Shown: piece after piece, positions 6,190 through 52,020 of the stretch
Layout: every line of letters starts with the position of its first letter
Numbering within the stretch: position 1 is the first letter of the stretch
Assembly: GCA_937863685.1 (NCBI GenBank)
Contig: CALMGM010000012.1
Span: 65,816 to 129,815 of the forward strand
Direction: 5' to 3'
Length of the DNA: 64,000 bases
From: an uncultured bacterium
Lineage (GTDB): Bacteria; Edwardsbacteria; AC1; EtOH8
The notes under the pieces: model-generated
The model's database searches: none
Told to the model about the DNA's origin: nothing
What the model saw: only the letters and a program-made list of their open reading frames with translations
Translations under genes and position numbers: made by a program

Positions 6190-6220
6190 TATTGTTCAAG
6201 AGAATTTTGTGGAGAAGATA

Positions 6221-31460: not shown

Positions 31461-32534
31461 CTATCGTATCCTTTGCCCGTCGGACTCCCTGAAGATATGG
31501 GCCTCCTCGGCTTTGAAGTCCAGGTTTATATTGCTGTTCTGGTCCAGCTTCAAATTGCCGTTGATCCGGGCGATGACCTTGTACCCGCCGTCCGATGAAG
31601 CATAAAGCAGCGACTCCCCGCCCAGCTGTTCCACCAGGTCCACCGTGGTTTTTATCCCGTCCTGGGCGACAAAAACGTTCTCCGGACGGATCCCCAGCAT
31701 CACCGGCGTTCCATTCTCTGCGCCGGCGGATAGATGCGGCAGGGGTTTTTCCATCTCCTTGTTTTTAAAAGTGAATTTTCCGCCAACCGACATCAGGCTT
31801 CCGGGGATCAGGTTTATACCCGGGGTGCCGATGAAATTGGCCACGAACAAGTTGGCCGGGTCGTTGTAGATGGCCAGGGGCTCACCAACCTGGTGCAGCC
31901 GGCCGTCCTTGATCACCGCTATCCGGTCCCCCAGGGTCATGGCTTCGGTCCGGTCATGGGTGACGTAGATGGCGGTGGTGTTAAGCTGCTGCTGGAGCCT
32001 TTTAAGCTCGGCCCGGGTCTGGGTCCTGAGCTGGGCATCCAGGTTGGAAAGCGGCTCGTCGAACAAAAATACCTTGGGCGATTTGACGATGGCCCGGGCC
32101 AAAGCCACCCTCTGCCGCTGGCCGCCGGACAGGGCTTTGGGCTTGCGGTCCAGGTATTTTTCCATATCCAGCATCGCGGCAGTCTGAGCCACCTTTTGCT
32201 TGATCAGAGCCTTGTCCATCTTGGCCATCTTGAGCCCAAAGGCGATGTTGTCGAACACCGTCATGTGGGGATATAAAGCATAGTTCTGAAAGACCATGGC
32301 CACATTGCGGTCCTTGGGAGCCACATCATTCACTACGGTATTGTCTATGGACACCTTGCCTTCGGTGATCTCCTCCAGTCCGGCGATCATCCTCAGGATA
32401 GTGGTCTTACCGCAGCCGGACGGGCCCACCAGAACCAGAAATTCTCCGTTACGTATATGCAGGTCCACCCGGCTCACTGCCGTGACCTTTTTGTCATACA
32501 CTTTTGTCAGATTCTCAAGCAATACTTCAGCCAT
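31461..32534 (-). CDS. Carbohydrate/glycerol-3-phosphate-type ABC transporter ATPase (MalK/UgpC family)
   Basis: 357 residues. Walker A GPSGCGKT (37-44), Q-loop MVFQNYALYPHMTVFDNI, signature ALSGGQRQRVALARAI, Walker B VFLFDEPLSNLDAQLR and H-loop YVTHDRTEAMTL. The C-terminal 120 residues form the TOBE/OB regulatory domain typical of the MalK group (VMLGIRPENVFV). It should energise the permeases at 47858-50005, 15 kb upstream, since no other partner is present. It is the last gene of the long minus-strand run. Confidence 0.93.
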   Translation of the reverse strand: MAEVLLENLTKVYDKKVTAVSRVDLHIRNGEFLVLVGPSGCGKTTILRMIAGLEEITEGKVSIDNTVVNDVAPKDRNVAMVFQNYALYPHMTVFDNIAFGLKMAKMDKALIKQKVAQTAAMLDMEKYLDRKPKALSGGQRQRVALARAIVKSPKVFLFDEPLSNLDAQLRTQTRAELKRLQQQLNTTAIYVTHDRTEAMTLGDRIAVIKDGRLHQVGEPLAIYNDPANLFVANFIGTPGINLIPGSLMSVGGKFTFKNKEMEKPLPHLSAGAENGTPVMLGIRPENVFVAQDGIKTTVDLVEQLGGESLLYASSDGGYKVIARINGNLKLDQNSNINLDFKAEEAHIFRESDGQRIR

Positions 32535-32554: not shown

Positions 32555-34054
32555 TTAATTAATTGCATTGACACTCAAAAGGTCCAAATAAAAATTTCCC
32601 TTATGGGTCACGTCCAGGGTGCAGCGGCATTTACAATTGACAAAATCCTGATTCTTCTGGCTGGCCATAAGATATTTCAACCAGTATCGATCGCCTGTCC
32701 GGCTGTATCTGGGTAAAAGCAGATTTTCAAAATTGCAGATCTTGGGCTTGTGGTCCGGACCGAAAGGCGCCAGCGAAAGTATATCCGGCAGGATCGGATC
32801 GATCTCATCCAGCCGGGCAAACCTGTGATCTATCCTCTCCGATGGTTTTGATCTTAGGATCAGGCTCTGGTTTTTGATCCCATATTTTTTCAGGGCCTCG
32901 ATCAGTTCCTTCTCCCGGCCCTCCAGGACAGTGAAGCCGGCCGCCGGCTTGTGGCCCCCATGCTGGAGAAAAAAACCTTGCATGACGTTAAGCATGGCAA
33001 CGAAATCGAACGGCTCGAATCCCCGGCATTCCCCGACGGTCAGGCCGTTCTTGCGGCCCAGGATGACCACCGGGTGCCCGGTCCGATCCCTGACCCCGCC
33101 GGCCACCGCTCCCACCAGGCTCCAGGACAGCTGGTCATCGGCCAGCACTTTCAGGGGATTGGGATCGGCCAGGGCCTCATCGGTCTTGGCCGTCACCTCA
33201 TCCTCCATCCGGTTCAGCCAAAGCTGCTCGGCCGAATAAAGCTCCTTCCAACACCCGGGGTCAAAATCACCCCGCAGCAGCTCCAGGGTCTGGTGGCGAA
33301 ATCCCTGGGAATTGCAGGAGGAAAGCAGTCCCACATAGGTCTGGGAGATTATCCTGGGAGACAGGCCCTGGTCGCAGGATATCCCCAGCAGGTCATTCAG
33401 CCGGCCGATGACCGGGTTTGCCTCGATAAAACCCAGTCCAGCCCTGACGATGTGCCAGTTCTCGCCAGTCATCGGCACCCGGTCGGTGATGGTGGCCAAT
33501 GCCGCCCAGGCTGTACGGTGGTGGGGATATTCATTCAGCCAGTCTTCCGACGATCCACCGTCCACTGCGGCCGCCAGATACAGGGCCACCCCGGCCCCGG
33601 CCAAATGGGGAGTGGGCCGGCCCTCCTCCGGGATCTTGGGGTTGAGCAGGCAGGCAGCCTTGGGCAAGCGGGAAGGAAGTTCGTGGTGGTCGGTTATGAT
33701 AAGTTCCAGCCCTTTTGAGGCGGCATATTCCGCCTCATCCATGCTGGAAATGCCGGAATCCACCGTGATCAGCAGAGATACTCCCCGTTCCAGAAGCTGG
33801 TCGATCACTTCCCGGTTCAGGCCGTAATGGGTGGTGGACTTGGGAGGGATGAAATAAATCGCCTCCGCCTTGCCCCGCAGGGCATCCAGCATGATTGCGG
33901 TGCTGGCAATTCCATCGATGTCATCATGGCCCCAGACGGCGATCAGCCGTTTCTCCAGGCAGGCTTGATCTATCGCCCGGGCAGTTTTTTGCAAAGAGGC
34001 CCAGCCGGAGGGATTTGCCGGCTTACCAGAAATATCGAAGATTTCCTCCGGCAT
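32555..34054 (-). CDS. DHH-family single-strand exonuclease / phosphoesterase, RecJ-like
   Basis: About 499 residues. The DHH domain shows the metal-binding motifs WGHDDIDGIAS (Asp44, Asp45, Asp47), LLITVDSGISS and IITDHHELPS. A DHHA1-type motif GGHKPAAGFTV lies near residue 375. RecJ digests single-stranded DNA 5' to 3'; relatives cleave oligonucleotides or cyclic dinucleotides, so the substrate is uncertain. The chosen ATG 34054 lies 1 base after the stop of the upstream barrel gene, and GGAGG is inside the coding start. A longer start at 34102 would overlap that gene. No signal peptide, so it is cytoplasmic. Confidence 0.88.
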   Translation of the reverse strand: MPEEIFDISGKPANPSGWASLQKTARAIDQACLEKRLIAVWGHDDIDGIASTAIMLDALRGKAEAIYFIPPKSTTHYGLNREVIDQLLERGVSLLITVDSGISSMDEAEYAASKGLELIITDHHELPSRLPKAACLLNPKIPEEGRPTPHLAGAGVALYLAAAVDGGSSEDWLNEYPHHRTAWAALATITDRVPMTGENWHIVRAGLGFIEANPVIGRLNDLLGISCDQGLSPRIISQTYVGLLSSCNSQGFRHQTLELLRGDFDPGCWKELYSAEQLWLNRMEDEVTAKTDEALADPNPLKVLADDQLSWSLVGAVAGGVRDRTGHPVVILGRKNGLTVGECRGFEPFDFVAMLNVMQGFFLQHGGHKPAAGFTVLEGREKELIEALKKYGIKNQSLILRSKPSERIDHRFARLDEIDPILPDILSLAPFGPDHKPKICNFENLLLPRYSRTGDRYWLKYLMASQKNQDFVNCKCRCTLDVTHKGNFYLDLLSVNAIN

Positions 34055-34055
34055 G

Positions 34056-34940
34056 CTAGAAGCTGATCCCCATGGACAAGGCTTGGATGTTTCCCAGGTC
34101 ACCGTACGACCGGTAGCCGTAGGCCACGCTGAGATCCCTCCGGCCCAGTTTTTTCAGCTCCATCCCCAAACCCAAGGGGGACCGGTCCGCCAGCTCGGGG
34201 ATCTTTTCGTATCCTATTTTAAGGGATAGACTGGTCAGCGGATATGATTCCAGGGAAAGGCTGGGATATCCGCCCTCCTCCTTTCTGATATTATACTGCA
34301 CCGAGCCGCTGACCTTGCCGGCAAGATATTCGGCCCGGACTCCGGCCACATATGCCGTGTTCTGGGGATAGCGGATATCGTTGTTCCTGGGATAATCCGG
34401 CCCCAGGTCCTTGACCATCAGGCTGCCGGAAAGCAGGCCCCTTTTATACATCAGGGCAATGTCCGAGCTCCAGCCCCAGTCATAGCGGTCCGGCAGGTTC
34501 AAACGCGAGGCCTTCAAATTGAGGCCCAGGCCCCAGGCATCGGCCATCACCAGACCATAGCCCAGGCCCAGGTTCGACGCTTGAGACTGGAGGGTCCCCA
34601 TCGGCTGGCCGTCCTCGGTGTATCCGGAAACGGTCCCCAGCGACCAATACCCCAGGCTGAATGACGCTGTGCCATATCTTCTGACCGGCAGCGCGGCGCT
34701 GGCCGAGCCCCCGTATACCTCCTGCCACCATTGGATCCCCGAGGCGGAAAGCGTCCGGTATTTTATGAAACCCAGGGATGACGGGTTCTGCAGCAGGCCC
34801 TGGGGTTCCCGGGATTGCAGGAGACATCCCTCTCCGAACACCACCTGCTCCGCCGTGGTGGGCATATCCCAGTACAGCAGCTGGGCCTGGACCGTCTGGG
34901 CCAGCATCACCGCCCAGGAGATGATAATGATTTTTTTCAT
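34056..34940 (-). CDS. PorV/PorQ-like outer-membrane barrel protein
   Basis: 294 residues with a signal peptide (IIISWAVMLAQTVQAQ) and a beta-strand-rich body (LGYGLVMADAWGLGLNLKAS, YVAGVRAEYLAGKVSGSVQY) ending in the strand IQALSMGISF with a terminal Phe, as outer-membrane barrels do. The N-terminal LLQNPSSLGFIKYRTLS resembles the NPA(S/G)L motif of PorV/UPF0164-type proteins, which in type IX secretion shuttle substrates to the attachment complex. It overlaps the PHP gene upstream by 4 bases. Confidence 0.75.
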   Translation of the reverse strand: MKKIIIISWAVMLAQTVQAQLLYWDMPTTAEQVVFGEGCLLQSREPQGLLQNPSSLGFIKYRTLSASGIQWWQEVYGGSASAALPVRRYGTASFSLGYWSLGTVSGYTEDGQPMGTLQSQASNLGLGYGLVMADAWGLGLNLKASRLNLPDRYDWGWSSDIALMYKRGLLSGSLMVKDLGPDYPRNNDIRYPQNTAYVAGVRAEYLAGKVSGSVQYNIRKEEGGYPSLSLESYPLTSLSLKIGYEKIPELADRSPLGLGMELKKLGRRDLSVAYGYRSYGDLGNIQALSMGISF

Positions 34941-36283
34941 CGGGACACCATGGTTTTCCCCAGAGAGACCCTGGTTTCGGTTGCGGATTTCTGTTCCAGC
35001 CGGATGAAATACACTCCGTTGAGAACCTGCCTCCCTTTGGCATCCTTCCCGTTCCAGCCGATGGGCTGGTCCGGCTGGCTTCCTATTATCTCTTTTACCA
35101 GCTTGCCGGAAAGATCGTAGATGACGGCCTTGACCGAAACGGCCGCCGGAAGCGGAGTGAAAACGATCCGGGCGTAGTTCTTGATGGGGGTGGGCCAGGT
35201 GACCACCGGATTCTTTTCGGACACCCCGTCGATGTGGACCGGACTGGTCCAGGCCCGGTCGCCGTCGCTCTGCAGGGCCTTGGCATGATAATAGACCGTG
35301 CCCAATCCAATGTTCTTTTCAAGCTCCCAAGTAACCATGGGCGAAGCCTGGACCACTTTAAAAGTATCTTCAGGAATGCCGTTGGTGTACAGGTACAGGC
35401 TGGCAAAATCGCTTCCGGCCGAAGCCTGGATCATTATTTTGACCGTACCCTCCTGTCGGATGAAATGCTCGCCCTGATAGCGGTCGTCCACGGACAATAA
35501 AAGATTTATCCGGTCGGAGGCCGGGCTGACCTCCATGGCGGTGGTGCGCCGGGACTGCAGGGCCTCCAGGACCGCCGGTTTGGTCAGGGTGTCGGCCCAG
35601 ATCCCGGTCAGCGGGATGTTGCCGTAAGAATTCACCCGGTTTCCCCAGTCCCGACGGTGGTTATCCTGGTTGGCCGACGCCCCCACGTGCCAGCCCCGTT
35701 CCAGGGCCCGGAGATAGGCGTCTTCGTAAAGGGTGCTGCTGTTGATGATCTCGATCAGGTCCATGGCCCGGTCGTAATCCTGGTAGTAGTACAGATCGTT
35801 GAAATTGCTGTTCCAGGAAGAGTCGGGATGGCAATACATGGCCGGACAGCCTTGGTCCAGAATCCAGGAATAACAACCCAGCAAATCGCTATTGTTGTAG
35901 GGCCACAATCCGGGAGCCTCCCAGACGTTGATGTGCCCGAAGCCGGAGCTGCCGATGCTGCCCACCTCCTGCCCGGCCAGGGCCACGAACCTGCCCGGGG
36001 CAGTGATGGTGTCGGCGATCAGCCTCAGATTCTGGTAATGCTCCGGAGTGATGGAATAGCTCACTCCGGAAAAACTGCCTCCGTTGTTATGTTCGGTCAG
36101 GGCCTGGATATCCACTCCGGCCACATCCCGGGCGTAAGCGAAGGCGGTGTCCGGGGTGCTTTCTCCGTCGGAATAGCTGGTGTGGGCATGCAGATTGCCG
36201 TAAAAACATTTGTATTCAGCATTGATCTTTCCGGCCCCCAGCAAAAAAAGGCACAGCGCCGTTGTTTGTATCATCATCTTCAT
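34937..36283 (-). CDS. Exported PHP-domain phosphoesterase with C-terminal sorting-type domain
   Basis: 448 residues: a signal peptide (MIQTTALCLFLLGAGKINA), a PHP metallophosphoesterase domain with YGNLHAHTSYSDGES (His32, His34, Asp39) and ALTEHNNGGS, then a C-terminal FlgD/Por-type tail of about 80 residues (IYDLSGKLVKEIIG and GVYFIRLEQ). The tail implies surface export by a type IX-like route. Surface PHP proteins may hydrolyse phosphate esters, but the substrate is unknown. It overlaps the nucleotidase gene by 4 bases, so the two phosphoesterases are made together. Confidence 0.85.
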   Translation of the reverse strand: MKMMIQTTALCLFLLGAGKINAEYKCFYGNLHAHTSYSDGESTPDTAFAYARDVAGVDIQALTEHNNGGSFSGVSYSITPEHYQNLRLIADTITAPGRFVALAGQEVGSIGSSGFGHINVWEAPGLWPYNNSDLLGCYSWILDQGCPAMYCHPDSSWNSNFNDLYYYQDYDRAMDLIEIINSSTLYEDAYLRALERGWHVGASANQDNHRRDWGNRVNSYGNIPLTGIWADTLTKPAVLEALQSRRTTAMEVSPASDRINLLLSVDDRYQGEHFIRQEGTVKIMIQASAGSDFASLYLYTNGIPEDTFKVVQASPMVTWELEKNIGLGTVYYHAKALQSDGDRAWTSPVHIDGVSEKNPVVTWPTPIKNYARIVFTPLPAAVSVKAVIYDLSGKLVKEIIGSQPDQPIGWNGKDAKGRQVLNGVYFIRLEQKSATETRVSLGKTMVSR

Positions 36284-37827
36284 TTCAGCAGTTCCCCTCC
36301 TCCGGCCTTTTTGATCCGTCCCTCGATCCGGACATCTATCGGCGAATTTTTCCGGACATAGTCGGTCATGGCCTGTCTCAGCTGGATATAGGTGTCGGAA
36401 CGATCGGCGCCTTCTTGAAATATCTTGTAGTTGCCTCCGCCGGCCCCCAGGAAATTGTTGGTGACCACTTTGTAGACTTTGGCGGGGTCGATGGGCTGGC
36501 CGTTCACGGTGACGCCGACCACCCTTTTCCAGACCGGTTTTTTGGCATCGTAGGTCATCTGCAGACCTCCCACCTGGAATATGGCATGATAGCCCAGCAC
36601 GCTGGTCTCGCAGGCTTTTATCACCTGGCTGCCGGTCAGGTCCATGGTCACCAGATAATTGCCGAAGGCGTCTACCTTATAGATGCTGCGGTAGGTTATC
36701 TCGCCCTTGACGATGTCCGCCTTGATGCCGGCCGAATTCTGAAAGGCTATATCCGCTCCGGTGGCGTCCATCATGGCATTGCACACGAAGTTACCAATGG
36801 AACTTTCCTTGTCACCCCCGCCGCGCTTCATGTCCACCAAGGCCACCCCCAGTGATTCGTCAAATCCTTTTTCGGCCAGAGTATTTCCCTCGGATACTAT
36901 CCGGTCGACCATGGTATCCCGGGGTACTGCTTCGGTAAACAATTCCTTCAGTTCACTGTTGTATCCCACAATCTGTTTGGTCTCCGGATCTATCAGCAGG
37001 TCCAGCTTGCCGATGGTGGTCAGGTTCCCGAAGGTCTGGACGATGATGGTGTGGTGTTTGGGATCCTCGTAAGCCTGGCGCAGTCCGGTATGGCTGTGGG
37101 CTCCGATTATCACATCGATGCCGGGAACACTATCGGCAATGGCCTTGTCGTGGCGGTAACCGGTATGCAGCAGGCCGAAGATCAGGTCGACATTTTGGGC
37201 CTTGAGCGAATCCACCATCTGCCTGGCGGTGGCCGATTCCTTGGCGATATCCAGGCCCTGAATATGCTCCGGGGTGGCCATGCCCCGCAGATAATGAGTG
37301 ATCAAGCCGAAGAGTCCGATCTTCAGTCCGGCCCGTTCCAGAACGATGTATGGTTTGAGATAGTCGACCGTCTTCCCGCTGACGGAGTCTATTAGATTGG
37401 ACCCCAGGGTCGGGAAATTGGCCTCGGTTATCAGGGTCTTGATCACCTCCTGCCCCTTGTCGTAATCGTGATTGCCTAAAGTCATGGCGTCATAGCCCAT
37501 CAGGTTCATGAAATCTATCACCGCCCGGCCTTGGGTAAATTCACCCAGCGGCGTCCCCTGGAAGATGTCCCCGCCCTCCAGCAGCAGGAAACCCCAGCCG
37601 TTCTGCTCGGCCTTCTGCCGTTCCTCTTTGATGATAGTAGCCACCGCCGCGGCGTTTCCGATGGGAGGCGGGAAATTCGGATTGATCCACCAGGCCTCCT
37701 CCTGGGGCAGATGGCCGTGAATGTCATTGGTGTGCAGGATGACCAGGTGCTGCCACTCCTTGGCCAGCGCGGTCCCGCCCGTCAAAATGACCAGGGACGC
37801 GATTATGATTTTGATGTTCTTGAACAT
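36280..37827 (-). CDS. Periplasmic 5'-nucleotidase / UshA-like metallophosphatase
   Basis: Hydrolyses nucleoside 5'-phosphates (and UDP-sugars in UshA). 515 residues: signal peptide (IIIASLVILTGGTALA), metallophosphatase domain with HTNDIHGHL (Asp35, His37), GGDIFQGTPLGEF, ALTLGNHDYDKGQ-like NHD motif (MTLGNHDYDKG) and IGAHSHTGL. The C-terminal 5'-nucleotidase substrate domain follows (GNYLVTMDLTGSQVI, VTNNFLGAGGGNYKIF). It lies between two barrel genes and a secreted PHP protein, pointing to extracellular nucleotide salvage. Confidence 0.93.
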   Translation of the reverse strand: MFKNIKIIIASLVILTGGTALAKEWQHLVILHTNDIHGHLPQEEAWWINPNFPPPIGNAAAVATIIKEERQKAEQNGWGFLLLEGGDIFQGTPLGEFTQGRAVIDFMNLMGYDAMTLGNHDYDKGQEVIKTLITEANFPTLGSNLIDSVSGKTVDYLKPYIVLERAGLKIGLFGLITHYLRGMATPEHIQGLDIAKESATARQMVDSLKAQNVDLIFGLLHTGYRHDKAIADSVPGIDVIIGAHSHTGLRQAYEDPKHHTIIVQTFGNLTTIGKLDLLIDPETKQIVGYNSELKELFTEAVPRDTMVDRIVSEGNTLAEKGFDESLGVALVDMKRGGGDKESSIGNFVCNAMMDATGADIAFQNSAGIKADIVKGEITYRSIYKVDAFGNYLVTMDLTGSQVIKACETSVLGYHAIFQVGGLQMTYDAKKPVWKRVVGVTVNGQPIDPAKVYKVVTNNFLGAGGGNYKIFQEGADRSDTYIQLRQAMTDYVRKNSPIDVRIEGRIKKAGGGELLK

Positions 37828-37828: not shown

Positions 37829-39052
37829 CTATTTCTTCAGCGAAATGGTTAACATCAGATCGGCCATGGTCTCGGATACCGTTGTCCGGCTGGAGGTGCC
37901 GAAGGCCTGCCCGTAATTGAAGGTCCTCCGCCCCATCCCGGCCGAGATGCCGGCGTTCACCCAGGGGAGCGATATCTCGGTGCCGAAACCGGCCCTGGCC
38001 AATCCGATGGATGACGAAAGATAGGAATTGGTGAAAGACACGCCGAAATACAGGGGCCGGTTGTTTTTCATCCGGTGCGATATTCCAAAACTGTACCGGC
38101 TGACCGGGGACAGAAGGTCATCATAGGAGAAAAGATTGTCCGTCAGATTCTGCCAGGGGCTGTATTCATATTCCAGGCTGACGGTGGCCGGAAATTCATT
38201 GGACGGCCGGTAGTTCACCCCTATAGTGTAACTGCTGGGCAGCCCTACCTTCTGTTGGTCGTTGATGGTCGTGTCGTTATAGCTGTAGGAGAACGGCCCT
38301 TCCATCCTGGCGCTGCTTTTCCAGCTTATACCCAGATTGAGACGCGGAGTTATCTGCCCGAAAGCCCCGGCCGAATAACGATATCCCTTGTAATTGAACC
38401 GATAGTCTATCTTGACATCAGGATAGGTGGGATCGGCATAGTCCTCGGTGATGGCGATCTTGGGATCCCCCGACAGTCTGGTCAGCCCCAGTCCGGCCGA
38501 CAGGAAAGAGAACGGTTTGACGGCCAGCGCTCCGCTGTATCCGTAGATCGCCCCTTCCTCGTTCTGCTGGTATATACGGGTCACGTAGTAGAAGGCATCC
38601 CGCTCCTCGGTTTTTAACCGGTAGCTGAAATCGTATTCCCGGCTGATGCCGAATCCCAGGGCCGTCCGCGGCAGGCCCCACCGCCGAAAGGAATATGATG
38701 CCTGGGCGCCGTGGAGGTTGTAGTCGGTCTGGTCGTTGATGGACATTGTCAGAAGGCCCACCGAATTGGCATAGGTGTCAAAAGCCTCGATAGAGCGGTA
38801 TTCCCGGCGCCAGTTGATCCCGGCGGCCAGCTGGGCCTCCAGGCCTTCCGTTTCGGTCATCAACGCCGGATTGACCAGCAATCCCTGGCCGGGCAGGGCC
38901 ACCCCCTTTATGTTCAGAGCCAGGCCAACGGCACTGTAGGCTGACGCCGGCGATCCGTAGGGGGTGTACTCCAAAAGTCCGGCCTGGGCGCTGCCGAGAA
39001 CGGTAATGAAACTTACTGCCAAAAGCAGCGCGATTTTTTCTTTGATCTTCAT
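37829..39052 (-). CDS. Outer-membrane barrel protein (FadL/PorV-like)
   Basis: 407 residues with a signal peptide (IALLLAVSFITVLGSAQA). The body is a regular run of amphipathic strands (FGISREYDFSYRLKTEERD, SFGISHRMKNNRPLYFGVSF) ending ADLMLTISLKK. The N-terminal part has VNPALMTETEGLEAQLAAG, reminiscent of the NPA motif of FadL/PorV-like barrels. It sits 1 base from the nucleotidase gene; a role as its channel or as an export component is plausible but unproven. Confidence 0.75.
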   Translation of the reverse strand: MKIKEKIALLLAVSFITVLGSAQAGLLEYTPYGSPASAYSAVGLALNIKGVALPGQGLLVNPALMTETEGLEAQLAAGINWRREYRSIEAFDTYANSVGLLTMSINDQTDYNLHGAQASYSFRRWGLPRTALGFGISREYDFSYRLKTEERDAFYYVTRIYQQNEEGAIYGYSGALAVKPFSFLSAGLGLTRLSGDPKIAITEDYADPTYPDVKIDYRFNYKGYRYSAGAFGQITPRLNLGISWKSSARMEGPFSYSYNDTTINDQQKVGLPSSYTIGVNYRPSNEFPATVSLEYEYSPWQNLTDNLFSYDDLLSPVSRYSFGISHRMKNNRPLYFGVSFTNSYLSSSIGLARAGFGTEISLPWVNAGISAGMGRRTFNYGQAFGTSSRTTVSETMADLMLTISLKK

Positions 39053-39089: not shown

Positions 39090-41624
39090 TTACCATCTGA
39101 GATCCAACTGCAGGTCCACCTTCCACAGATCGCGCCGATCGGTGAAATCCCGTACCACCTCCGCCGGCAGTTCTGCAAAATAATAATTATAGTCCGGACC
39201 GTAGATGTTGTTGTAGTTATACCGGGTATCCTTTCCCCGGATCCTCAGCCGGGCCTGCAGATTGTCCGACAATCTGTCGGATATCGTCACAAAATATTTC
39301 ATGCCGTCGTTGTCCAGGAAATCTATCCCGGCGTCCTCGAAAATCCACTGGGACATGGCATCGGTCCGCCAGCTGGAGATCCCGGCCTTCATATCCCAGT
39401 TGGGGGAAAAATTATGCTGCCAGTTGGAGGCCAGGTAGACCCCGCTCATCAGGGTGTTGCTGCCGTAGGCCGTGGACGGGGTCAGCCGGACCTCGCCGTA
39501 ACGCAACTCCACATTAAAATAATCCCGGTCGGTCAGGGTGCAGAAGGTCCTGAGGGTGGTCTCCCGGGTGTTGGACCTGGAGGCCTCGGCGGGCTTGGGC
39601 AGATATTTGGTCTGGAACTTTTGCTTGACCCTGAATCGCAGGGGAAAGACCGGGCGGTATTCCAGCTCGCCCTGGAACCGGACGTTGTCCAGGCCGTAGG
39701 CCAGGTTTCTCCAGAAATCTATATAGGCCCTGGTTAGGGTCAGCTGGCGGTTGATCTGCCACCGGGTCTCGATATAGGTGCCGTCCTCGGACTTGGGCGC
39801 CGGGTAGTTGACCAGCTGCTTGTAGCTGGGGTCTATCAGGCGGTACTCCTTCTCCAAAAGGGTGTCATCGAACTTGGTCTGTTCGGAGAAACCGCGGGAA
39901 TAGGGATTGTCGTAATCAACGTCGTAATGCCGGCGCAAAAGAAGGAGATACACGGTTTCATACTGGAGGCGCGACGTCCATAAGTAAGCCCAACCGCCTC
40001 CGTTGAGGTGCGCCAGCTCCCCTTCCACCGAAAGGTTGTCCACCACCGTCCGGAAATTTCCGGATTTGATGCCCCGGATGTTTCCCGACCACAGCTGGGT
40101 GAAATTGGGATCCGACAGTTCGTTCACATCCCCCGGCAGGTCCAGTTCGCCGGGATCGGGGCGGAAAGCCTTGTCGTATTTGCATTCGAAGGCCGTAAAT
40201 CCGAGCTGGGTGCCCACCGGCAGCGACATCATGCCCGAAAGGTCCCAGTTGACGTTCATCCCGTAGGTCTTTTCGTTGAATACGTCCCGGTACCAGGGAT
40301 ACCGGGGGGCCGATATGAAATAGGTATTGACCGTGCCGTCCCGGTTCAGTATCCCGTCCTTCTGGTCGGATGAAAAGAAAAATGTCGGTTTGATGTTCCC
40401 GAAGCCCGACTGCAGAGCGGCACCCCTCAGGGCGAACTCTTCGTTGGAGGTAATGTCCCCGAAGACCCCCGCCCCGCGGGTGAAGCGCCGCACCAGGGAT
40501 TCGTCGGCGGACCAGCGGTTATCCATGGCCAGCCCCTGGCCGAAGGTCAGGCGGTAGTTGCCTATAAAAAGTTTGTCGATGGGATCCATGTCATACAGGG
40601 CCACATAGGCCTTGGTGAAGCCCTGGTCCTCGTAGGGCTCCTTCTGATTGTAATAGCCCAGCTTGATATCTCCCCCCAGGTCCATCCGCAGGCGGTGCTG
40701 GACGGCCAGGCCGTTCCGGGCATTTCTCAGCTGTTCATATTCGGACTGCAGCCGTTCTTTCAACTGGTCGATCTCGGACTGGCTCCAGCCGTGCTGACTG
40801 AGGATCTTGTCGGTGGTCACGGTGTCGTAAACGGCAGAGCCGGGAATGAAGGCCAGCAGGGCGGAATTGAGCGAGGCAGCCTGATACCTGAAATCGTCCT
40901 CGTCGCCCGGATCGATCCGGTCATCGGAGGTCAGCCTTACCCGGTAATTCCCGTCAAAATAAAATCTCTCCTCCCTGGGATCGATGGTGACGTAGTTTCT
41001 CATGTTGGTGAAGCCGTAATGGGATAGGCCGTCGATGTTTCGCTGCAGGGTCCGCCAGTCCTTTATGGGGCCGGAGTATTTTATATGCCGGGCCACTGCC
41101 GCCGCATCGATGGGCGATACATTCTGCAGGGTCAACAGCTGGTCGATGGAAGTGCGGTTTATGTCCATGGGGTGCAGCAGCAGCTCCTCCCATTCGTTGA
41201 CGGCACCGTAACCCGGCGATTCCTCGGCCGCCAGCCGGTCCTGAAGTTCGGCGATGTACCTGGTGACATTCGAGGTGTCTGATGAGGGGAAGACCGCCAC
41301 CTGGGGCCGCAGTATTTTCAGGGACTGGGGATTCATCCCGGGCACCTCCATCAGCTGGTAGAAACTGGCGAAGGCCCCGCGTTCATAGCGGTAGGTATAA
41401 ATGTTCTCGGCCAGCTTTGGGGGAATGTCCTGAAGACCATAAATCTCTTCTTTGGTGGCCAGGTTGAGGTCAAGCTGGATGCCGGAACCGACGGTCAGGG
41501 TATCATCCGGGTATGCATTGACCTGGGTTTCCTGATAAAATTCCGACTGCTGGGCCGGTGCCGGACCTGCCGCATAAAGCGCCGCCAGCAGAATGAAGAT
41601 CATCGATTTATAATTCAACTTCAT
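39090..41624 (-). CDS. Large outer-membrane barrel with N-terminal ComEA-like helix-hairpin-helix motifs
   Basis: About 844 residues. After a signal peptide (FILLAALYAAGPAPAQ), two helix-hairpin-helix segments are visible: LNLATKEEIYGLQDIPPKLA with YRYERGAFASFYQLMEVPGM, and MDINRTSIDQLLTLQNVSP with GPIKDWRTLQRNIDGLSHYG. This layout matches ComEA-type DNA-binding modules. The remaining 650 residues look like a large beta-barrel, ending VDLQLDLRW with a terminal aromatic. Such proteins occur in FCB-group genomes without known function; DNA binding is inferred from the HhH motifs. Start ATG 41624 has GGTGA before it, inside the end of the upstream gene. Confidence 0.8.
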   Translation of the reverse strand: MKLNYKSMIFILLAALYAAGPAPAQQSEFYQETQVNAYPDDTLTVGSGIQLDLNLATKEEIYGLQDIPPKLAENIYTYRYERGAFASFYQLMEVPGMNPQSLKILRPQVAVFPSSDTSNVTRYIAELQDRLAAEESPGYGAVNEWEELLLHPMDINRTSIDQLLTLQNVSPIDAAAVARHIKYSGPIKDWRTLQRNIDGLSHYGFTNMRNYVTIDPREERFYFDGNYRVRLTSDDRIDPGDEDDFRYQAASLNSALLAFIPGSAVYDTVTTDKILSQHGWSQSEIDQLKERLQSEYEQLRNARNGLAVQHRLRMDLGGDIKLGYYNQKEPYEDQGFTKAYVALYDMDPIDKLFIGNYRLTFGQGLAMDNRWSADESLVRRFTRGAGVFGDITSNEEFALRGAALQSGFGNIKPTFFFSSDQKDGILNRDGTVNTYFISAPRYPWYRDVFNEKTYGMNVNWDLSGMMSLPVGTQLGFTAFECKYDKAFRPDPGELDLPGDVNELSDPNFTQLWSGNIRGIKSGNFRTVVDNLSVEGELAHLNGGGWAYLWTSRLQYETVYLLLLRRHYDVDYDNPYSRGFSEQTKFDDTLLEKEYRLIDPSYKQLVNYPAPKSEDGTYIETRWQINRQLTLTRAYIDFWRNLAYGLDNVRFQGELEYRPVFPLRFRVKQKFQTKYLPKPAEASRSNTRETTLRTFCTLTDRDYFNVELRYGEVRLTPSTAYGSNTLMSGVYLASNWQHNFSPNWDMKAGISSWRTDAMSQWIFEDAGIDFLDNDGMKYFVTISDRLSDNLQARLRIRGKDTRYNYNNIYGPDYNYYFAELPAEVVRDFTDRRDLWKVDLQLDLRW

Positions 41625-41629
41625 CGGGG

Positions 41630-42460
41630 TCACCATTTGTAACCCAGGCCGAACTGGTGGGTCCCGGACAGGGCCTGGTGCCCTCCCTCGAAGGCATAGC
41701 CCACCAGTATTCCCCTGGTCCTTACTCCCATCCCTACGGAATAAAGGGTCAACTGGCCTTCGTTCATGATCCCGGCTCTCAACGCCAGCTTTCCCTGTAA
41801 AAGTTCGTATTCGGAGCCGATTTTATACCTGGTTATCCTGCCGGCGTCCTTTCCGGCCTCGATTGATGCCAGTACCCCGCTGAATGGGATGTAGGACACC
41901 CCGATGTTAACCCCGCTGGGCAGATCGTATTGGTAAAGCGTACCCAGGCTGGGGTGATTCATATTGTGGCCGAAACAGCCGATCCTCCAGCTGCGGTACA
42001 CTTTGGCCAACAGGCCGATGTCGATACCGGTGGTCATGGCCGAACCAAAGCCTTCCTGCCACAGCCGGTAGAAATTGAAATTATAGCCGAAGGCCAGCTG
42101 GCTGTTGAGGTCGAATCCGTGGGACAGGGTCACCGCCTGGTCGGTCTCCAGGTCGCATCCCACCTGCTGGGCCGATATCGCCACCCCGCCCCACTTGACG
42201 AACCTGCGGCCGATGGTGGCCGTCTGGTTGGTGAGGCCGGCCACCCCCCACAGCCGTTTGGCAAAGACCGTGGCCTGCCAGGAATCTATCTGGGACAGTC
42301 CGGCCGGGTTCCACCTTACGGCGTCGATATCGTCGGCCACCGCGGTATAGGCCCCCGACATTCCGACGGGCCGGATGCCCACCTGCCAGTCCTCGAAGGC
42401 CGCCCGGGCCGTTCCCAGGGGCAGGGACAGAATAAACACGATCGAAAGTATCTTTTTCAT
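41630..42460 (-). CDS. PorV/PorQ-like outer-membrane protein
   Basis: 276 residues: signal peptide (ILSIVFILSLPLGTARA), then the family-typical IRPVGMSGAYTAVADDIDAVRWNPAGLSQI start, split here as GMSGAYTAVADD and WNPAGL, and barrel strands ending in HQFGLGYKW. Relatives (PorV, PorQ, UPF0164) help deliver proteins with C-terminal sorting domains in type IX secretion. It sits directly after the large secreted protein that carries such a domain, consistent with a delivery role. Confidence 0.82.
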   Translation of the reverse strand: MKKILSIVFILSLPLGTARAAFEDWQVGIRPVGMSGAYTAVADDIDAVRWNPAGLSQIDSWQATVFAKRLWGVAGLTNQTATIGRRFVKWGGVAISAQQVGCDLETDQAVTLSHGFDLNSQLAFGYNFNFYRLWQEGFGSAMTTGIDIGLLAKVYRSWRIGCFGHNMNHPSLGTLYQYDLPSGVNIGVSYIPFSGVLASIEAGKDAGRITRYKIGSEYELLQGKLALRAGIMNEGQLTLYSVGMGVRTRGILVGYAFEGGHQALSGTHQFGLGYKW

Positions 42461-42471: not shown

Positions 42472-45400
42472 TTATTTCAATGGCGTGCCCAGCACGACTA
42501 TCTTGGTTTTGTCGGAGATGGCCCCCTTGTCGGTGACACTCCTGAGGTGGGCGATGTACATCCCGATATTGGCCCGTCGGTACATGTCGTCCTTTCCGGT
42601 CCAGTAGTAGTACTGATGACCTCCCGGGACGTTGTTCAGGCAGGTCTTGACCAGCCGCCCCTTCAGGTCGTAGATCCGCAGAGTAAGGCGTTGGTCGGCC
42701 GGGGCGTTGATCTCAATGACGGCCACCTGGCCCAATTCCGGGGAGAAGGGGTTGGGCTTAATGGAAACGAATTCGGCCGAGGCCGAGGCCGCGATGGAAT
42801 CAACCAGGACCTCGATATCGGGCGGATACAGGACGCCGTTGTAGAAATAATCCTGGGCGAACCTGGGAACCAGCTGGTATCCGCTGTTGTAGAGGGGATC
42901 CTTGTCATACTGCGATGCGATGCCGGTCACCCGGATCTTGGTGCCGTAGGTCAGAGGGCTCAGGTCGAAGCCGCTGACCTCGACGATCCTGACAGCGATC
43001 GGAGCGTTTCCGTTGCGGATCACCATGTTATATCCGCCTCCGGCATAGGCCGGGGTGCCGCTGATGATGCCCTCCACCGAGACCAGCTGGCCCTCGATGC
43101 TTTCGCCCAGCAGCTGGTCATAGATCATGGCCCGGGGGGCCACCGGCTGGCCGGCCCAGTCCCACAGAGCGATCTGGGCGGCGCTGCTGGCCACCTCGGT
43201 GACGCCGTTGTATTCGGTCACCCGGCCGGTGACCACCGCCCGGCGGCCCAGCACGAACTGGCCCTTGGTGCCGCCGTAGACGTTGACCCCTCCGGTGCCG
43301 TCGTCCAGGTACCAGCTGGCAGTGCTGGCGGTGGAGCTGGTGAAATACTGGTCCGGGCCGCTGACGATGCCCTCCACCGTGACCGTCAGCCCCTCCATCA
43401 ACGAGGTGAACCCGTCCGGGCCGGGTTTCTGTACCTCGGAGATCCGGGTGGGATTCAGCAGGGTGACAAAACTGAATCGTACGTCGTCCAGGCTGTCGTT
43501 GGAGCCGACCCCGTTCTTGTTCCCGTCCAAATAATAGCCCAGGGTGTCGCGCAGGGAATGCGATACCCAGACCGAGACCGTCTCCCCGGGGGTAAAGGCG
43601 GCCGACGGAACCAGCCGGACCGAGCAGTCAATACTGTCGTAATCCAGGGACAGGCTGTGGCCGGCCGAACAGCTGCCGGTCACCGAAAAGTTGTCGGATA
43701 TTATGGTGGACTGGTCCAGCGGCTTGTCGAAATCCAGGCCGATGCCCACCTGGGTGGGGACATTGACATTTCCCATTGCCGGCAGGGATGACAGCAGTTT
43801 CACCGGTTTGAACTGGACGATATCCCGGGGGAACCGGGGCTCTATCTTCCAGCCGAAGGAGGCGTGCAATATGCCCTGGACCCGGATCAGGCTGTCGCCT
43901 ATCACCGGGGTATAACCCATGTGGGAAAGGGAATCCAGAAAGTCATCCATAGTGCAGGGACCGCTGCCGTCATTGACGTCCCATTCATAATAGCTGTTGG
44001 GCAGGCTGGTGACGCTCACCTTGTTGGTGGCCACCAGCACACCCTCATAAGCTTCGGCGTTGGGATTGGCGGTGTACATGCTGTCGGTGGGCAGGATCAC
44101 GGGATCAGGCACCCGGGCCCCCTTCTTGAGCAGCTGATAACCGCTGACCGGGGATATCTCGGTCAGGCCGAAATATTCGATGACCGTTCCGCTGACCAGC
44201 ACCGAATCCCCCTCGTCGGGGAAACGGTCGCGATCGTAGCAGTAAACCCCGTTCCAGGGTCCGGTGCCGTCCTGGATGAAATACATTCCCTTGCTGTTGC
44301 CCACCCGGACCACACCGGTCACCACTCCGCTGACGGTGATGTTCTGTCCGCTGTAGGGCGAATTGCCGGAAGGATCGGTGGTGTATTGAATGTCGAAAAT
44401 TGACAGGTTGGGATTCCTTCTGGTCTGAAAGGAGAAGGTGTCGCCGACGGCCGGGTTGCCGGAGGAATCCGTCAGGCTGTTCCGGACCTCCACCGTCACC
44501 GTATCCCCGTAGGCAAAACTGTCGGCCGGCAGTATGGTGATCCGGGTATTGCCGCTGGAAAGCAGCGGGGTTTTTATCCGGTAGCTGGGGATACGGCTTC
44601 CCGTCAGCCTGAATGCTGCGGTGTCAACGGTGGATGGCAGCAAGGCCTCGCTGAAGTTCACCTCCACCGAAGATGCGACCTGAACATTGATCTGGCCGTC
44701 AGCCGGCACGGTGGTCAGCACCCGGGGCGGCGTGGTGTCGGGCACAAGGGTATGGAACTGCCAGCCGTACTGGACCGCCAGGTTCTCTCCCGAGGTATCA
44801 ACTATGGCGGTGGTCAGGATGGCGGCGACCGTATCGGCCAAAAGCAGGCTGTCCCGGATATAATAGGTGTAGCTGGTGCTGTTGGCCGCCGGGCGGATGG
44901 AGTCGGCCGGATAGTAGGCCTGGCGTTTCCCGTTGACCACAAAGCTGGCGGTGTCCATGGTGGCCCAGTTTATCATCCGGTCGAAGGTCACCGAGACCGC
45001 GGAATGGGTCGGAACCCCTGAGGCTCCGTTGGCCGGGATCACCCCGGTAACATTGGGGCCGGTGGGATTGGACCCGGTGACATCCGCCCAGCTGGTGCCT
45101 ACCCTGATGCCGTCGATGTCAGCATTGGGGGTGGCCAGGGTTGGCGGACCTGCAGTATATCCCTGCCGGATGGCCACCCGGGCGATATCGGTGACTGTGG
45201 CTGCGGCAGCCTGTTCGATGTCGGCCGCCGGCTGGGAGCCGGTCAATACGGGATTCAGCCAAAGCCAGCAATAATCCGGGTTCAACTGGTAAGCGATGAC
45301 GATCAGATAGGTGACCCCGGGCGTCAGATCGCTTGCCCGCCAGACGGCTTCGGTATTGGTGGAAGTGGCCCGGACCCCCAACTGAAAGGTATTGGCTGCG

Positions 45401-45873
45401 GAGCCCAACCGGATGGTGATCCGGCCCACATAGGTGGTGGTAGAGGAACTGGGCAGCAGCGACAAAAAGTAGTCGCCGGTGGTGCTGCCGTTGGCCGCCA
45501 GCCCGTCGGTGTTGGCCAGATTCAGCAGAAACCCGACATAGGTTGTGGAGCCGGACGGCTGGGTGGCAAACTGGCGGTAGACGTCCTCGGACGAGGTCGT
45601 TGCGTACTTTATCGCTATCTTGTTCCCGATGCCCGAGGAAAAGTAACCGCTGTAGGTCAATCCCGGACTGGCCACCTGGATGTAATTCCCGGTCCCGGAG
45701 AAGTCGACCCAGTTGCCGCCGCTGACATTGGCCCCTCCCCCGTTGTCGGTCAGCTGCCCGACGGCATAATCGAAATTCTCCTCCATCAGCAAAGTAGCTC
45801 CCGATCCTGCGGCCAGCAACAGCAGCATAGGAACGATCAGCAGCACTTTTTGCCAGGTCTTAGTTAAGGCCAT
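42472..45873 (-). CDS. Large secreted protein: jelly-roll, Ig-like and OB-fold repeats with sorting tail
   Basis: 1133 residues: signal peptide (LLIVPMLLLLAAGSGA), a concanavalin-like sandwich (about 30-270), two Big_5/SbsA-type Ig-like domains (VIPANGASGVPTHSAVSVTF; VPADGQINVQVASSVEVNF), and an OB-fold pair (ITVSGVVTGVV; VLVSGTVIEYFGLTEIS). These are followed by a third Ig-like domain and more OB-type units (TVEGIVSGPDQYF; VTGRVTEYNGVTEV). The FlgD/Por-type tail begins at KPNPFSPELGQVAVIEI and has LRIYDLKGRLVKTCLN. The OB units resemble those accompanying secreted nucleases of YhcR type, but no nuclease catalytic motif is seen. It is probably displayed on the cell surface and is the first gene of the downstream barrel/phosphoesterase run. 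Confidence 0.8.
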   Translation of the reverse strand: MALTKTWQKVLLIVPMLLLLAAGSGATLLMEENFDYAVGQLTDNGGGANVSGGNWVDFSGTGNYIQVASPGLTYSGYFSSGIGNKIAIKYATTSSEDVYRQFATQPSGSTTYVGFLLNLANTDGLAANGSTTGDYFLSLLPSSSTTTYVGRITIRLGSAANTFQLGVRATSTNTEAVWRASDLTPGVTYLIVIAYQLNPDYCWLWLNPVLTGSQPAADIEQAAAATVTDIARVAIRQGYTAGPPTLATPNADIDGIRVGTSWADVTGSNPTGPNVTGVIPANGASGVPTHSAVSVTFDRMINWATMDTASFVVNGKRQAYYPADSIRPAANSTSYTYYIRDSLLLADTVAAILTTAIVDTSGENLAVQYGWQFHTLVPDTTPPRVLTTVPADGQINVQVASSVEVNFSEALLPSTVDTAAFRLTGSRIPSYRIKTPLLSSGNTRITILPADSFAYGDTVTVEVRNSLTDSSGNPAVGDTFSFQTRRNPNLSIFDIQYTTDPSGNSPYSGQNITVSGVVTGVVRVGNSKGMYFIQDGTGPWNGVYCYDRDRFPDEGDSVLVSGTVIEYFGLTEISPVSGYQLLKKGARVPDPVILPTDSMYTANPNAEAYEGVLVATNKVSVTSLPNSYYEWDVNDGSGPCTMDDFLDSLSHMGYTPVIGDSLIRVQGILHASFGWKIEPRFPRDIVQFKPVKLLSSLPAMGNVNVPTQVGIGLDFDKPLDQSTIISDNFSVTGSCSAGHSLSLDYDSIDCSVRLVPSAAFTPGETVSVWVSHSLRDTLGYYLDGNKNGVGSNDSLDDVRFSFVTLLNPTRISEVQKPGPDGFTSLMEGLTVTVEGIVSGPDQYFTSSTASTASWYLDDGTGGVNVYGGTKGQFVLGRRAVVTGRVTEYNGVTEVASSAAQIALWDWAGQPVAPRAMIYDQLLGESIEGQLVSVEGIISGTPAYAGGGYNMVIRNGNAPIAVRIVEVSGFDLSPLTYGTKIRVTGIASQYDKDPLYNSGYQLVPRFAQDYFYNGVLYPPDIEVLVDSIAASASAEFVSIKPNPFSPELGQVAVIEINAPADQRLTLRIYDLKGRLVKTCLNNVPGGHQYYYWTGKDDMYRRANIGMYIAHLRSVTDKGAISDKTKIVVLGTPLK

Positions 45874-46006: not shown

Positions 46007-46435
46007 CTAAAATAAATACCGATACAAATAACCCATTACCTTGTATTCTGTCCGCTGCTGTATCCTTATTATTTCAAAACTCCGAAAACCTATATATAAT
46101 GCAGCTCCTGAACCCAAAAGAAAGAACAACATTGGCACCGAGGTGTTATAATCATAAATATAATTGATGCCGATTGGGGTCAGCCTGCTGGAAAAAAGAA
46201 CTGACCAGGCAGCCATGAAAACAATCAAATACAGAGCGATATAATTGCCGTAAGAAATTTTATTAACATTCCTTCTGAATGCAATCGCACAGGCAAAGAT
46301 CAGAATAATCGAGATTGCGTTAATGGCTATCTTGATGATGTACCTGTAATGATGCGGATGTATGACTTTTCCCAACAAAAACAATACCAGACACAAAAAT
46401 AGCGCGCCTGCATATAATGATATGCTTTTATTCAT
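46007..46435 (-). CDS. Small four-helix membrane protein of unknown function
   Basis: 142 residues with about four hydrophobic helices (LYAGALFLCLVLFLLGKV, IAINAISIILIFACAIAF, IALYLIVFMAAWSVLF, VPMLFFLLGSGAALYIGF) and a basic tail. It begins 8 bases inside the end of the solute-binding-protein gene, so it is translationally coupled to the ABC transporter. I recognise no family; it may be an accessory membrane subunit or simply a passenger. Composition is somewhat more AT-rich than its neighbours. Confidence 0.65.
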   Translation of the reverse strand: MNKSISLYAGALFLCLVLFLLGKVIHPHHYRYIIKIAINAISIILIFACAIAFRRNVNKISYGNYIALYLIVFMAAWSVLFSSRLTPIGINYIYDYNTSVPMLFFLLGSGAALYIGFRSFEIIRIQQRTEYKVMGYLYRYLF

Positions 46436-47789
46436 GTTTGGGTTTGTGTAATTTCCAAAACAAACCCAGCGCCGACAAGGTTAAAATAGCGATCAACAGT
46501 ATCAGCGCCACCCAGGGACTGCCCGTTTCCTCCCCCTGCTGCTGATTTATTTTTTTGGCAGCCTTATGGAGAGCCTCGGCCGGGGTTTTGAATCCCTTCA
46601 GGGCCGGCTGCAGGCCGTCCTCGTCCATTATGGAGCGGCCTATGTTCCAGATGACCTCGTTTGGTTCGGGATAGGCATATTCCAATTGGCTATAGGCGCT
46701 CTCTAATCCGGGGTATCTGACAAACTTTTCCTTCAAGATCTTTTCATTCAAGGCGGATCTTCTGACCGGCAGATAGCTGGTCTCGGCCGACCAACGGGCG
46801 GTGTTGGCAGGCTCCATCATCCATTTGACCAATCCCCATCCCCGCGACATCAGATCTTCCTTGGGTTTGCGGAACATGATTATATTGGTGCCGGACAATA
46901 CCACGGCCCTTCTTTTTTTCATCGGCAATGGTGCAATGCCCATATTAAAGGGGATCTTCTGCAATGACATATAAGCCAATGAAGCCGAAGAACTTTGGAT
47001 CATAGCCACCCGACCGGACAAAAAGTCGTTCTGATGTTCAAACCCGGTTGTCAGGAACGCCACCTTGTGCTTGTATATCAGGTCTACCAAATACTGCAAA
47101 GCCTCAATTCCCTCCGGGCTGTCGAACACCACTTCCCTGCCGTCGGCGGAGAATATCTCCCCGCCATTCTGCAGCACCAAACACTGGAACATCCAGGCCG
47201 CTCCTGTGGGAAAAGCGGTACCCCACTGTTCCGGGGTGCCGTCATGGTTGCTGTCCAGGGTGAGTTTTTTGGCGGCCTCTATGAATTGGTCCCAGGTTGC
47301 CGGGAATCTCTCCGGGTCCAGCCCGGCTTTGACAAAAAGATCCTTGTTGTAATAATACACCGGCACGCTTTTGTTGAATGGCATACTGGTCAGTTTGCCC
47401 TTCCGGGAACATTCGGCCAGCATCACCGGGAAAAAATCCGACAGATAATTGGTGTCGTCCATCTGGGCGATATAATCACCGAAAGGTTTTACGGCATCCT
47501 TTTCCAGCAGCTGACTGGTCCAGGCCTCGTATGACTGGGCCAGCAGCGGCTCGTTTCCTGCCGCCACCGAGGCCATCAGCTTCTGGGACAGGGCCGTATA
47601 ACTACCCATGCTGATGGGGTCTATCTTCTGGCCGGGATCCTCTTTTGAGAAATCGGCCACCATCGAATCCAGGGTCTTGCCCAGCGGTCCGCCCATCACA
47701 TGCCAAAAGACCACCTCATCTTTGGCCCGGGGTTGGCACCCGGCCAGGGCCAGGATCAGCAATAAAACCGGAAATATCTGCTTTCTCAT
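46428..47789 (-). CDS. Family 1 solute-binding lipoprotein of a sugar-type ABC transporter, with C-terminal membrane helix
   Basis: 453 residues. A lipoprotein signal (LLLILALAGC, Cys18) precedes a SBP_bac_1 fold (EVVFWHVMGGPLGKTLDSM, SMPFNKSVPVYYYNKDLF, WGLVKWMMEPANTARWSAETSYLP split as VKWMMEPANTARWSAE and SYLPVRR). It resembles UgpB/MalE proteins. Unusually, a second membrane segment stands at the C-terminus (WVALILLIAILTLSALGLFW, about 426-445) followed by a basic KLHKPKHE tail, so both ends would be membrane-bound. It is in a run with the two permease genes. Confidence 0.9.
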   Translation of the reverse strand: MRKQIFPVLLLILALAGCQPRAKDEVVFWHVMGGPLGKTLDSMVADFSKEDPGQKIDPISMGSYTALSQKLMASVAAGNEPLLAQSYEAWTSQLLEKDAVKPFGDYIAQMDDTNYLSDFFPVMLAECSRKGKLTSMPFNKSVPVYYYNKDLFVKAGLDPERFPATWDQFIEAAKKLTLDSNHDGTPEQWGTAFPTGAAWMFQCLVLQNGGEIFSADGREVVFDSPEGIEALQYLVDLIYKHKVAFLTTGFEHQNDFLSGRVAMIQSSSASLAYMSLQKIPFNMGIAPLPMKKRRAVVLSGTNIIMFRKPKEDLMSRGWGLVKWMMEPANTARWSAETSYLPVRRSALNEKILKEKFVRYPGLESAYSQLEYAYPEPNEVIWNIGRSIMDEDGLQPALKGFKTPAEALHKAAKKINQQQGEETGSPWVALILLIAILTLSALGLFWKLHKPKHE

Positions 47790-47857: not shown

Positions 47858-48679
47858 TTACTCCTTAAGTCCGCTGGAGACGAAGCTTTGGTTGATCTGC
47901 TTCTGGGCGAAAATGTAGAAGATCACCAGCGGCAGGATTATCATGGTGGAGGCGGCCATCAGCAGGGGCCACATCGACCCCTGTTCCTGTGAGAAATAGG
48001 CCAGCCCCACCTGCAGGGGCCTCATGCTTTCGCTGTTGGTCACGATCAGCGGCCATAAAAAGCTGTTCCAGCTGCCGATGATGGAGAACAGGCTGATGGT
48101 CACCAGCACCGGCTTGGATACCGGCAGCAGAATGTGCCAGATGAATTTAAGATCATTGGCCCCGTCCATCTTGGAGGCCTCATAAAGGCTCCAGGGCACG
48201 GTCTTGAAATGCTGTCGCACCAGAAAGATGGAAAATATATTCACTGTCCAGGGAACGATCAGGGCGTAAAAAGTATCCAGCCACCTCAGCTTGGCCAATA
48301 TAACATAGGCCGGCACCAGGTAGACCGGCTGAGGTATCATCATCATCCCCAGCATGGCCAGAAAGGTCAGGTCGCGTCCCTTGAAATTCTTGAATGAGAA
48401 GGAAAAGGCTGCCAGGGTGGAAGTGGCCAGCACTCCGGCCAGGGTCAGCACCGTCATGATGGCGGTGTTCAGGAAATACCTCAGCAGCGGGATCTGGCGC
48501 CACACTTCCAGGTAATTCACCAGCTGGGGCCGGGCCGGGAATATCCGCGGCGGTATCAGCAATGATTCCGGCTGGGTCTTGAGCGAGGTCAGGATCATCC
48601 AGCCGAACGGGAAGATCATCACCAGCGAGATGGTCGTCAGCAGGATATAGACGATCAATTTAGTTCCGGTTCTTTTCAC
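47858..48679 (-). CDS. Sugar-type ABC transporter permease (MalG/UgpE family)
   Basis: 273 residues with six hydrophobic helices. The EAA loop that contacts the ATPase is visible as LYEASKMDGANDLKFIWHILLP (seen in two parts, LYEASKMDGAND and LKFIWHILLPVSKP). It pairs with the permease at 49052-50005 and the ATPase at 31461-32534. The 372-base gap to the upstream permease gene is unusually large for a permease pair and holds dispersed repeats, which suggests repeat insertion into the operon. Confidence 0.93.
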   Translation of the reverse strand: MKRTGTKLIVYILLTTISLVMIFPFGWMILTSLKTQPESLLIPPRIFPARPQLVNYLEVWRQIPLLRYFLNTAIMTVLTLAGVLATSTLAAFSFSFKNFKGRDLTFLAMLGMMMIPQPVYLVPAYVILAKLRWLDTFYALIVPWTVNIFSIFLVRQHFKTVPWSLYEASKMDGANDLKFIWHILLPVSKPVLVTISLFSIIGSWNSFLWPLIVTNSESMRPLQVGLAYFSQEQGSMWPLLMAASTMIILPLVIFYIFAQKQINQSFVSSGLKE

Positions 48680-50005: not shown

Positions 50006-50060
50006 CATATATAATTTATAGATGATAACCCATAAAAGCACCTGAGTCAATATGCACAAA

Positions 50061-51592: not shown

Positions 51593-52020
51593 TTCCGAAA
51601 CTCCTTTATTATTATTAAAATATTTGATTATCATTCAGGATTCATTATGCCACTTTTTTTGAGGTTTGTCAAGCTAAGAATCGGGAAATTTTATCATTGT
51701 CTTTCCTGTAGGAAATACCAAATGTTGTGGTAAGTAAGACAAAGGAATACCGTATAAGGTATCACTTGCATTGAGTGGTTATAGGCACCAAGCCCACGAG
51801 TGTTTTCCGCCAGAGGCTGACATCCGTGGTCACAACCCTTAAACATTTTCGTGTCTTTTCGTGTGTTTCCCGGCATTGTCCCGTAGTACATATAGCCCGC
51901 CACAGCAGGTAAGTTCATATAGGCGGGTCTGCCTTTGGCACGAGCGGGCAGGAGTGGACACAACTCCTAAAACCCATTTCGATCCGTTTCGTGTGTTTCG
52001 TGGGCAAAACCATTGGCAAA

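Follow-up and report, generated by a model that had tools for sequence, protein, structure and literature searches.

The HhH-barrel gene and its neighbours

The window analysed here is a whole stretch of 64,000 nucleotides from the genome of an uncultured bacterium (GTDB lineage Edwardsbacteria). A gene on its minus strand (39090..41636) encodes a protein of 848 aa, the HhH-barrel, which consists of a signal peptide, two helix-hairpin-helix modules of the (HhH)2 type and a C-terminal outer-membrane beta-barrel. There are two candidate starts for this gene, one at 41636 and an in-frame second ATG at 41624 (Met5), and Met5 may well be the true start. The stop codon of the upstream PorV-like gene sits between the two ATGs, and thus the two genes overlap or nearly touch with either start. 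The N-terminus, MKLNYKSMIFILLAALYAAGPAPA, was judged by eye to be a signal peptide. In a Pfam scan to E 0.1, HHH_3 was the sole domain found in the protein, and the plug and barrel profiles of TonB-dependent receptors gave no match. A literature search, with most subscription papers outside its scope, returned no description of the HhH-barrel gene cluster.

The neighbouring genes are all on the minus strand. Directly upstream is the gene of a PorV-like barrel of 276 aa (41630..42460; NF033709 PorV_fam, E 5e-12), whose score of 45.9 bits does not reach the cut-off of that profile, 90 bits. It is preceded by the gene of a secreted protein of 1133 aa (42472..45873) with a Big_5 domain, an OB-fold (ExeM-like N-terminal part), DUF5689 and a weak FlgD_ig/T9SS-type tail. 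Further upstream are genes for a UgpB-type solute-binding protein of an ABC importer (46428..47789), two ABC permeases (47858-48679 and 49052-50059) and a secreted protein with LTD, OB-fold and a T9SS-type tail (50111..51634; PF00932, E 3e-17; PF18962, E 3e-8).

Downstream lies the gene of a second outer-membrane barrel of 407 aa (37829..39052). This protein has no Pfam match of its own and was assigned to the FadL-like class through its relatives, since PF03349 was matched by 16 of the 42 downstream proteins that were scanned. A BamG-like role as BAM accessory was rejected for this neighbour, because NF053685 scored far under its cut-off (E 0.0023) in the one relative scanned. Next come genes for a UshA-type 5'-nucleotidase (36280..37827; PF02872, E 3e-38; PF00149, E 1e-8), a CehA/McbA-PHP metallohydrolase with a T9SS-type sorting tail (34937..36283; NF038032, 82.6 bits, above cut-off), a PorV/PorQ-family protein found by profile match (34056..34940), a RecJ/DHH exonuclease-like protein with no signal peptide by eye (32555..34102) and a MalK/UgpC-type ABC ATPase (31461..32534). 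The RecJ, PorQ-like and MalK genes were not counted as core, because they were seen linked in no genome family other than that of the window. We found no secreted nuclease in the window's own cluster. Elsewhere in the window (12815-14977, minus strand), a family-5 solute-binding domain is joined to a TonB_C domain, which is an unusual combination.

Domain structure and relatives of the HhH-barrel

The closest named relative of the HhH-barrel is from Candidatus Edwardsbacteria (locus L007, 87% identical), and full-length relatives are present in WOR-3, Zixibacteria and many further genomes. The architecture is therefore not due to chance, as its full length is conserved over several phyla. In addition to this long type, there is a short type with one HhH module. 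The window's own genome encodes such a protein, and so do Bacteroidota, in which its RefSeq name is 'helix-hairpin-helix domain-containing protein'. In a tree of 84 barrels, the 48 long and 36 short forms were split with support 1.0, and both forms co-occur in 14 genomes. Thus, the two types are old paralogues.

Module 1 (41298..41474, minus strand; residues ~55-113) contains the hairpins DIP and GMN. Pfam HHH_3 matched residues 54-113 with E 7.4e-17 and 61.7 bits (cut-off 27). Module 2 (40986..41168, minus strand; residues ~157-217), with the hairpins NVS and GLS, was overlooked by Pfam and was picked up by a profile seeded with canonical ComEA modules. This profile found two modules in every long-type relative (E 1e-9 to 1e-26), with E-values that are not independent because later iterations absorbed members of the family. 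Both modules folded well in isolation in a model from six sequences (pLDDT ~75-90, and ~75-87 for module 2). The model of module 1 matched ComEA 8dss with Z 10.9 and rmsd 1.6 over 66 aligned residues, followed by Tex and the ComEA-related protein 2duy of T. thermophilus. The matches of module 2 were weaker and within the range of common arrangements, with XcpX, a minor pseudopilin, at Z 5.9 as the best and PsbU next at Z 5.1.

The barrel (39093..40703, minus strand; residues ~312-848) contains the conserved motif RHYDVDYDNPYSRGFSE and ends in LQLDLRW, with a final Trp. A whole-protein model built on a seven-row alignment gave ~23-24 strands between residues 312 and 846, with a mean pLDDT of 53 and values of 70-87 in many C-terminal strands. 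The top PDB matches were outer-membrane barrels, mostly porins and receptors (Z ~14 over residues 404-848), and the terminal residue is W, F or Y in 46 of the 48 long-type sequences. The signal peptide, the modelled antiparallel barrel and the terminal aromatic residue are those of an outer-membrane beta-barrel, whose size is uncertain owing to the low mean confidence. The initial annotation had called the barrel from its strand pattern and terminal residue, and the predicted structure and its PDB matches bear this out. It had also placed signal peptide, two HhH segments and barrel in one polypeptide, an order confirmed by Pfam, profile, folding and PDB matches.

The ComEA likeness of the N-terminal part is likewise real at the level of the fold. 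The HhH-barrel resembles ComEA of B. subtilis and G. stearothermophilus (8dfk, 8dss) in the (HhH)2 fold, in 36% identity over module 1 and in its position after an N-terminal export signal; on the curated comEA profile TIGR01259 it scored 42 bits and did not reach the cut-off of 152 bits. Unlike ComEA, it is fused to a large barrel, has lost the equivalents of K166 and K195 and the GxG hairpins, and carries an invariant Asp in module 2. The side chains with which ComEA touches DNA in the G. stearothermophilus model are K166, K195 and T196 (PMC9747964). Module 1 has L75, Q104 and S105 at the aligned positions, and module 2, for which the same pattern of hairpins was aligned by eye, has D177, Y207 and G208. 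Asp177, at the position of Lys166, is found in 48 of 48 long-type sequences. The window protein has no GxG among its four hairpins, and the 48 sequences, drawn from 27 genome families (WOR-3 and Zixibacteria among them), have a single one among 192. The situation is different where HhH modules are fused to PorV-like proteins, as 22 of these 23 cases have retained GxG at least once.

The initial annotation had suggested a one-piece ComEA-like DNA receptor or gate, and had named beforehand the GxG hairpins, needed for contact with the DNA backbone, as the feature on which this depends. These hairpins were looked for and are missing. The architecture thus stands, and DNA binding of the ComEA type by the HhH part is not supported; we rejected it on the loss of GxG together with the invariant Asp at the Lys position. 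Net charge was dropped as an argument, as canonical PorV-fused modules also average zero; in the barrel, module 2 has a positive charge (+2.8 on average). The altered residues are strongly conserved and thus should have a function, the simplest being contact with the barrel, its partner or another protein. PsbU and GspK-type proteins, which have the same HhH fold according to the fold matches above, are not DNA-binding proteins.

Neighbourhood of the long type and its possible role

Neighbourhoods were counted at 47 long-type loci of 27 genome families, with testable loci as denominators. The conserved order is a secreted OB-fold/LTD/DUF5689 protein, a PorV-like protein, the HhH-barrel, a FadL-like protein and a UshA-type 5'-nucleotidase. 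The PorV-like gene lies directly upstream at 40 of 45 loci, the FadL-like gene directly downstream at 38 of 45, and the nucleotidase gene within 5 kb downstream at 25 of 38. A gene of the secreted class is upstream at 37 of 43 loci; the iterated profiles used to assemble this class have sorting tails in common, and hence the independent Pfam counts carry the weight. Among 45 neighbouring, mostly secreted proteins, a few of which are unrelated genes, Pfam found OB-fold in 26, FlgD_ig in 22, LTD in 15 and DUF5689 in 12. Furthermore, a UgpB-type binding protein is encoded upstream of the long-type barrel in eight genome families and ABC permeases are encoded nearby in six (25 testable in each case). 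Endonuclease I (L115, L097) or ComEC-like MBL domains (L097, L115; weak in L050) are additionally encoded in some relatives. For instance, Endonuclease I, MBL, a second HhH protein of 608 aa and another MBL are encoded in a row downstream of the barrel at L097:1482-7056. In a WOR-3 genome (L010:11320-11928), a PLD-family protein of 203 aa is encoded between the FadL-like and nucleotidase genes. As read from their domains, predicted surface proteins of the nucleic-acid-binding type and a nucleotidase are encoded together at the locus.

We tentatively propose, as a reading with somewhat less than even chances, that the HhH-barrel is the outer-membrane part of a locus for scavenging extracellular nucleic acids or nucleotides, with HhH modules that have taken on a new role in the periplasm as plug or dock. 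The surface OB-fold/LTD/DUF5689 proteins, many with T9SS tails, would bind DNA and, in some relatives, also cut it. The PorV-like barrel, the HhH-barrel and the FadL-like barrel would form an outer-membrane complex. The UshA-type nucleotidase would then remove phosphate from nucleotides, and the ABC importer would take in the product. Meanwhile, the ComEA-derived modules, no longer capable of ComEA-style DNA binding, would sit in the periplasm as a plug or a docking platform, either for the barrel or for its PorV-like partner. Complex formation, substrate, transport direction and plug role are what we infer here.

The nucleotidase and the ABC importer favour a nutrient-type locus for the long type, and the plug or dock role is suggested by the absence of GxG, the invariant D177 and the fold shared with PsbU and GspK-type proteins. 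The scavenging reading is also supported by the conserved operon, the OB/LTD/DUF5689 counts, the UgpB importer and the Endonuclease I and MBL genes of some relatives, as well as by several genes elsewhere in the window's genome. Two Endonuclease I proteins are encoded away from the locus; by eye, they have signal-peptide-like starts, and one has a sorting-like tail and one an LTD-like part. ComEC and a stand-alone ComEA are encoded outside the HhH-barrel locus, and deoC lies ~1 kb from comEC (G000:C1:64986-67434), which suggests that imported DNA may be catabolised.

Candidatus Izemoplasmatales is a lineage of Bacilli and has no outer membrane. In its DNA-degradation loci, secreted LTD/nucleic-acid-binding proteins, nucleases, nucleotidases and transporters lie together, as they do in part here, and such proteins mark loci of this kind; unlike our case, no HhH-barrel is reported there (PMC8289736). 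Several points speak against scavenging. The window's own cluster lacks a nuclease gene, 13 of the 38 testable loci have no UshA, and the secreted class is partly defined by common sorting tails. In addition, UshA-type enzymes and CUT1-type importers can also handle other organophosphates or sugars, and OB-folds can bind ligands other than nucleic acids.

A second reading is a general uptake of organophosphates, nucleotide-sugars or glycans, in which the HhH part is purely structural and the substrate is not nucleic acid. The UgpB/CUT1 importer of eight families, the UDP-sugar hydrolases within the UshA family and the near absence of DNA-contact residues from the HhH modules agree with it. Nevertheless, OB-fold, LTD, DUF5689, Endonuclease I and MBL in the neighbouring genes point to nucleic acids, as does the PorV-ComEA fusion of the paralogue described below, and we consider this reading unlikely. 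It stands a little behind the main rival of scavenging, which comes from the short type.

The short-type paralogue and a possible role in DNA uptake

Beside the short barrel, the PorV-like protein is itself fused to ComEA modules in 14 genomes distributed over four genome families, and nearly all of these modules have canonical GxG. In the window's genome (L130, G000:C13), a PorV-like barrel with two canonical GxG ComEA modules (4484-5788) is followed by the short-type HhH-barrel (2616-4556). A cluster at L125:7083-16001 (G103:C44) encodes an MBL-like protein, PorV, a PorV-OB-ComEA fusion, a five-module ComEA with LysM, a small HhH protein and an HhH-barrel, with a PilQ-like secretin close by. 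In L142, the gene directly downstream of the short barrel encodes full ComEC, and in L121 full ComEC is two genes away; by our own estimate, chance would account for ~0.1 such cases, given ~50 loci and one ComEC per ~3000-gene genome. The ComEA fusions and the proximity of ComEC connect the barrel family with the handling of DNA at the outer membrane, though not through the barrel's own HhH. Together with the gene neighbourhood of the long type, this paralogous system, whose PorV-like partner bears canonical ComEA modules, makes a link of the HhH-barrel family to nucleic acids likely. In Bacteroidota, Parabacteroides distasonis WP_121956131.1 is a homologous short-type HhH-barrel of ~690 aa with a PorV-like gene just upstream, and differs from the window protein in having one HhH module instead of two and no UshA cluster in view.

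These observations, the ComEC and stand-alone ComEA of the window's genome among them, raise the main rival explanation, that the PorV-like protein and the HhH-barrel form a DNA-uptake pore for transformation, replacing or assisting the secretin at the outer membrane, with the long type as one version of it. In Riemerella anatipestifer, a DUF5689 surface protein, an outer-membrane barrel and an HhH protein (RA0C_RS04920/04915/02645) are required for transformation (PMC8459023), which also agrees with such a pore. However, the Riemerella genes are likened to ours by description, and their HhH protein is predicted to be periplasmic and separate from the barrel. By the position of its HhH (236-301), it would resemble a stand-alone triple-HhH protein (e.g. 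that of L027) and not the barrel. The Izemoplasmatales loci (PMC8289736) and the needs of Riemerella transformation (PMC8459023) are consistent with both scavenging and a transformation pore. Furthermore, the long type is nearly free of GxG and has nucleotidase and ABC importer genes as neighbours, whereas UshA was found at none of the seven short-type loci checked. As the two types are also split at support 1.0, their functions may differ. We consider a transformation pore rather unlikely.

A further reading is that the PorV-like protein shuttles tailed OB/LTD proteins, the HhH-barrel being an accessory of T9SS secretion or anchoring; the PorV-like neighbour is almost always adjacent, many upstream proteins have T9SS-type tails, the neighbouring barrels resemble the PorV/FadL family and a SprA-like gene is present in the window's genome, but this is improbable, because the neighbours score below curated cut-offs, described T9SS have no HhH partner barrel, and the ComEA fusions, ComEC and the nucleotidase neighbours are left unexplained. 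Directly behind that or another SprA-like gene, of 1893 aa (L129, G000:C9; 6662-12340), is a gene for a ComEA of 147 aa with an N-terminal membrane anchor (6218-6658).

Beyond the scavenging role that we favour for the long type, a wider picture is conceivable but doubtful: a secretin-independent DNA translocator of the outer membrane, made of a PorV-like subunit (ComEA-fused in some) and an HhH-barrel, might extend from Bacteroidota to candidate phyla, and a duplication might have given a competence-linked form and a long form for feeding on nucleic acids. How Bacteroidota and related candidate phyla carry DNA, whole or in fragments, across the outer membrane is so far poorly understood. A conserved two-barrel module, ComEA-fused and near ComEC, nucleases and nucleotidases, provides named genes in cultivable Bacteroidota and makes this question directly testable.
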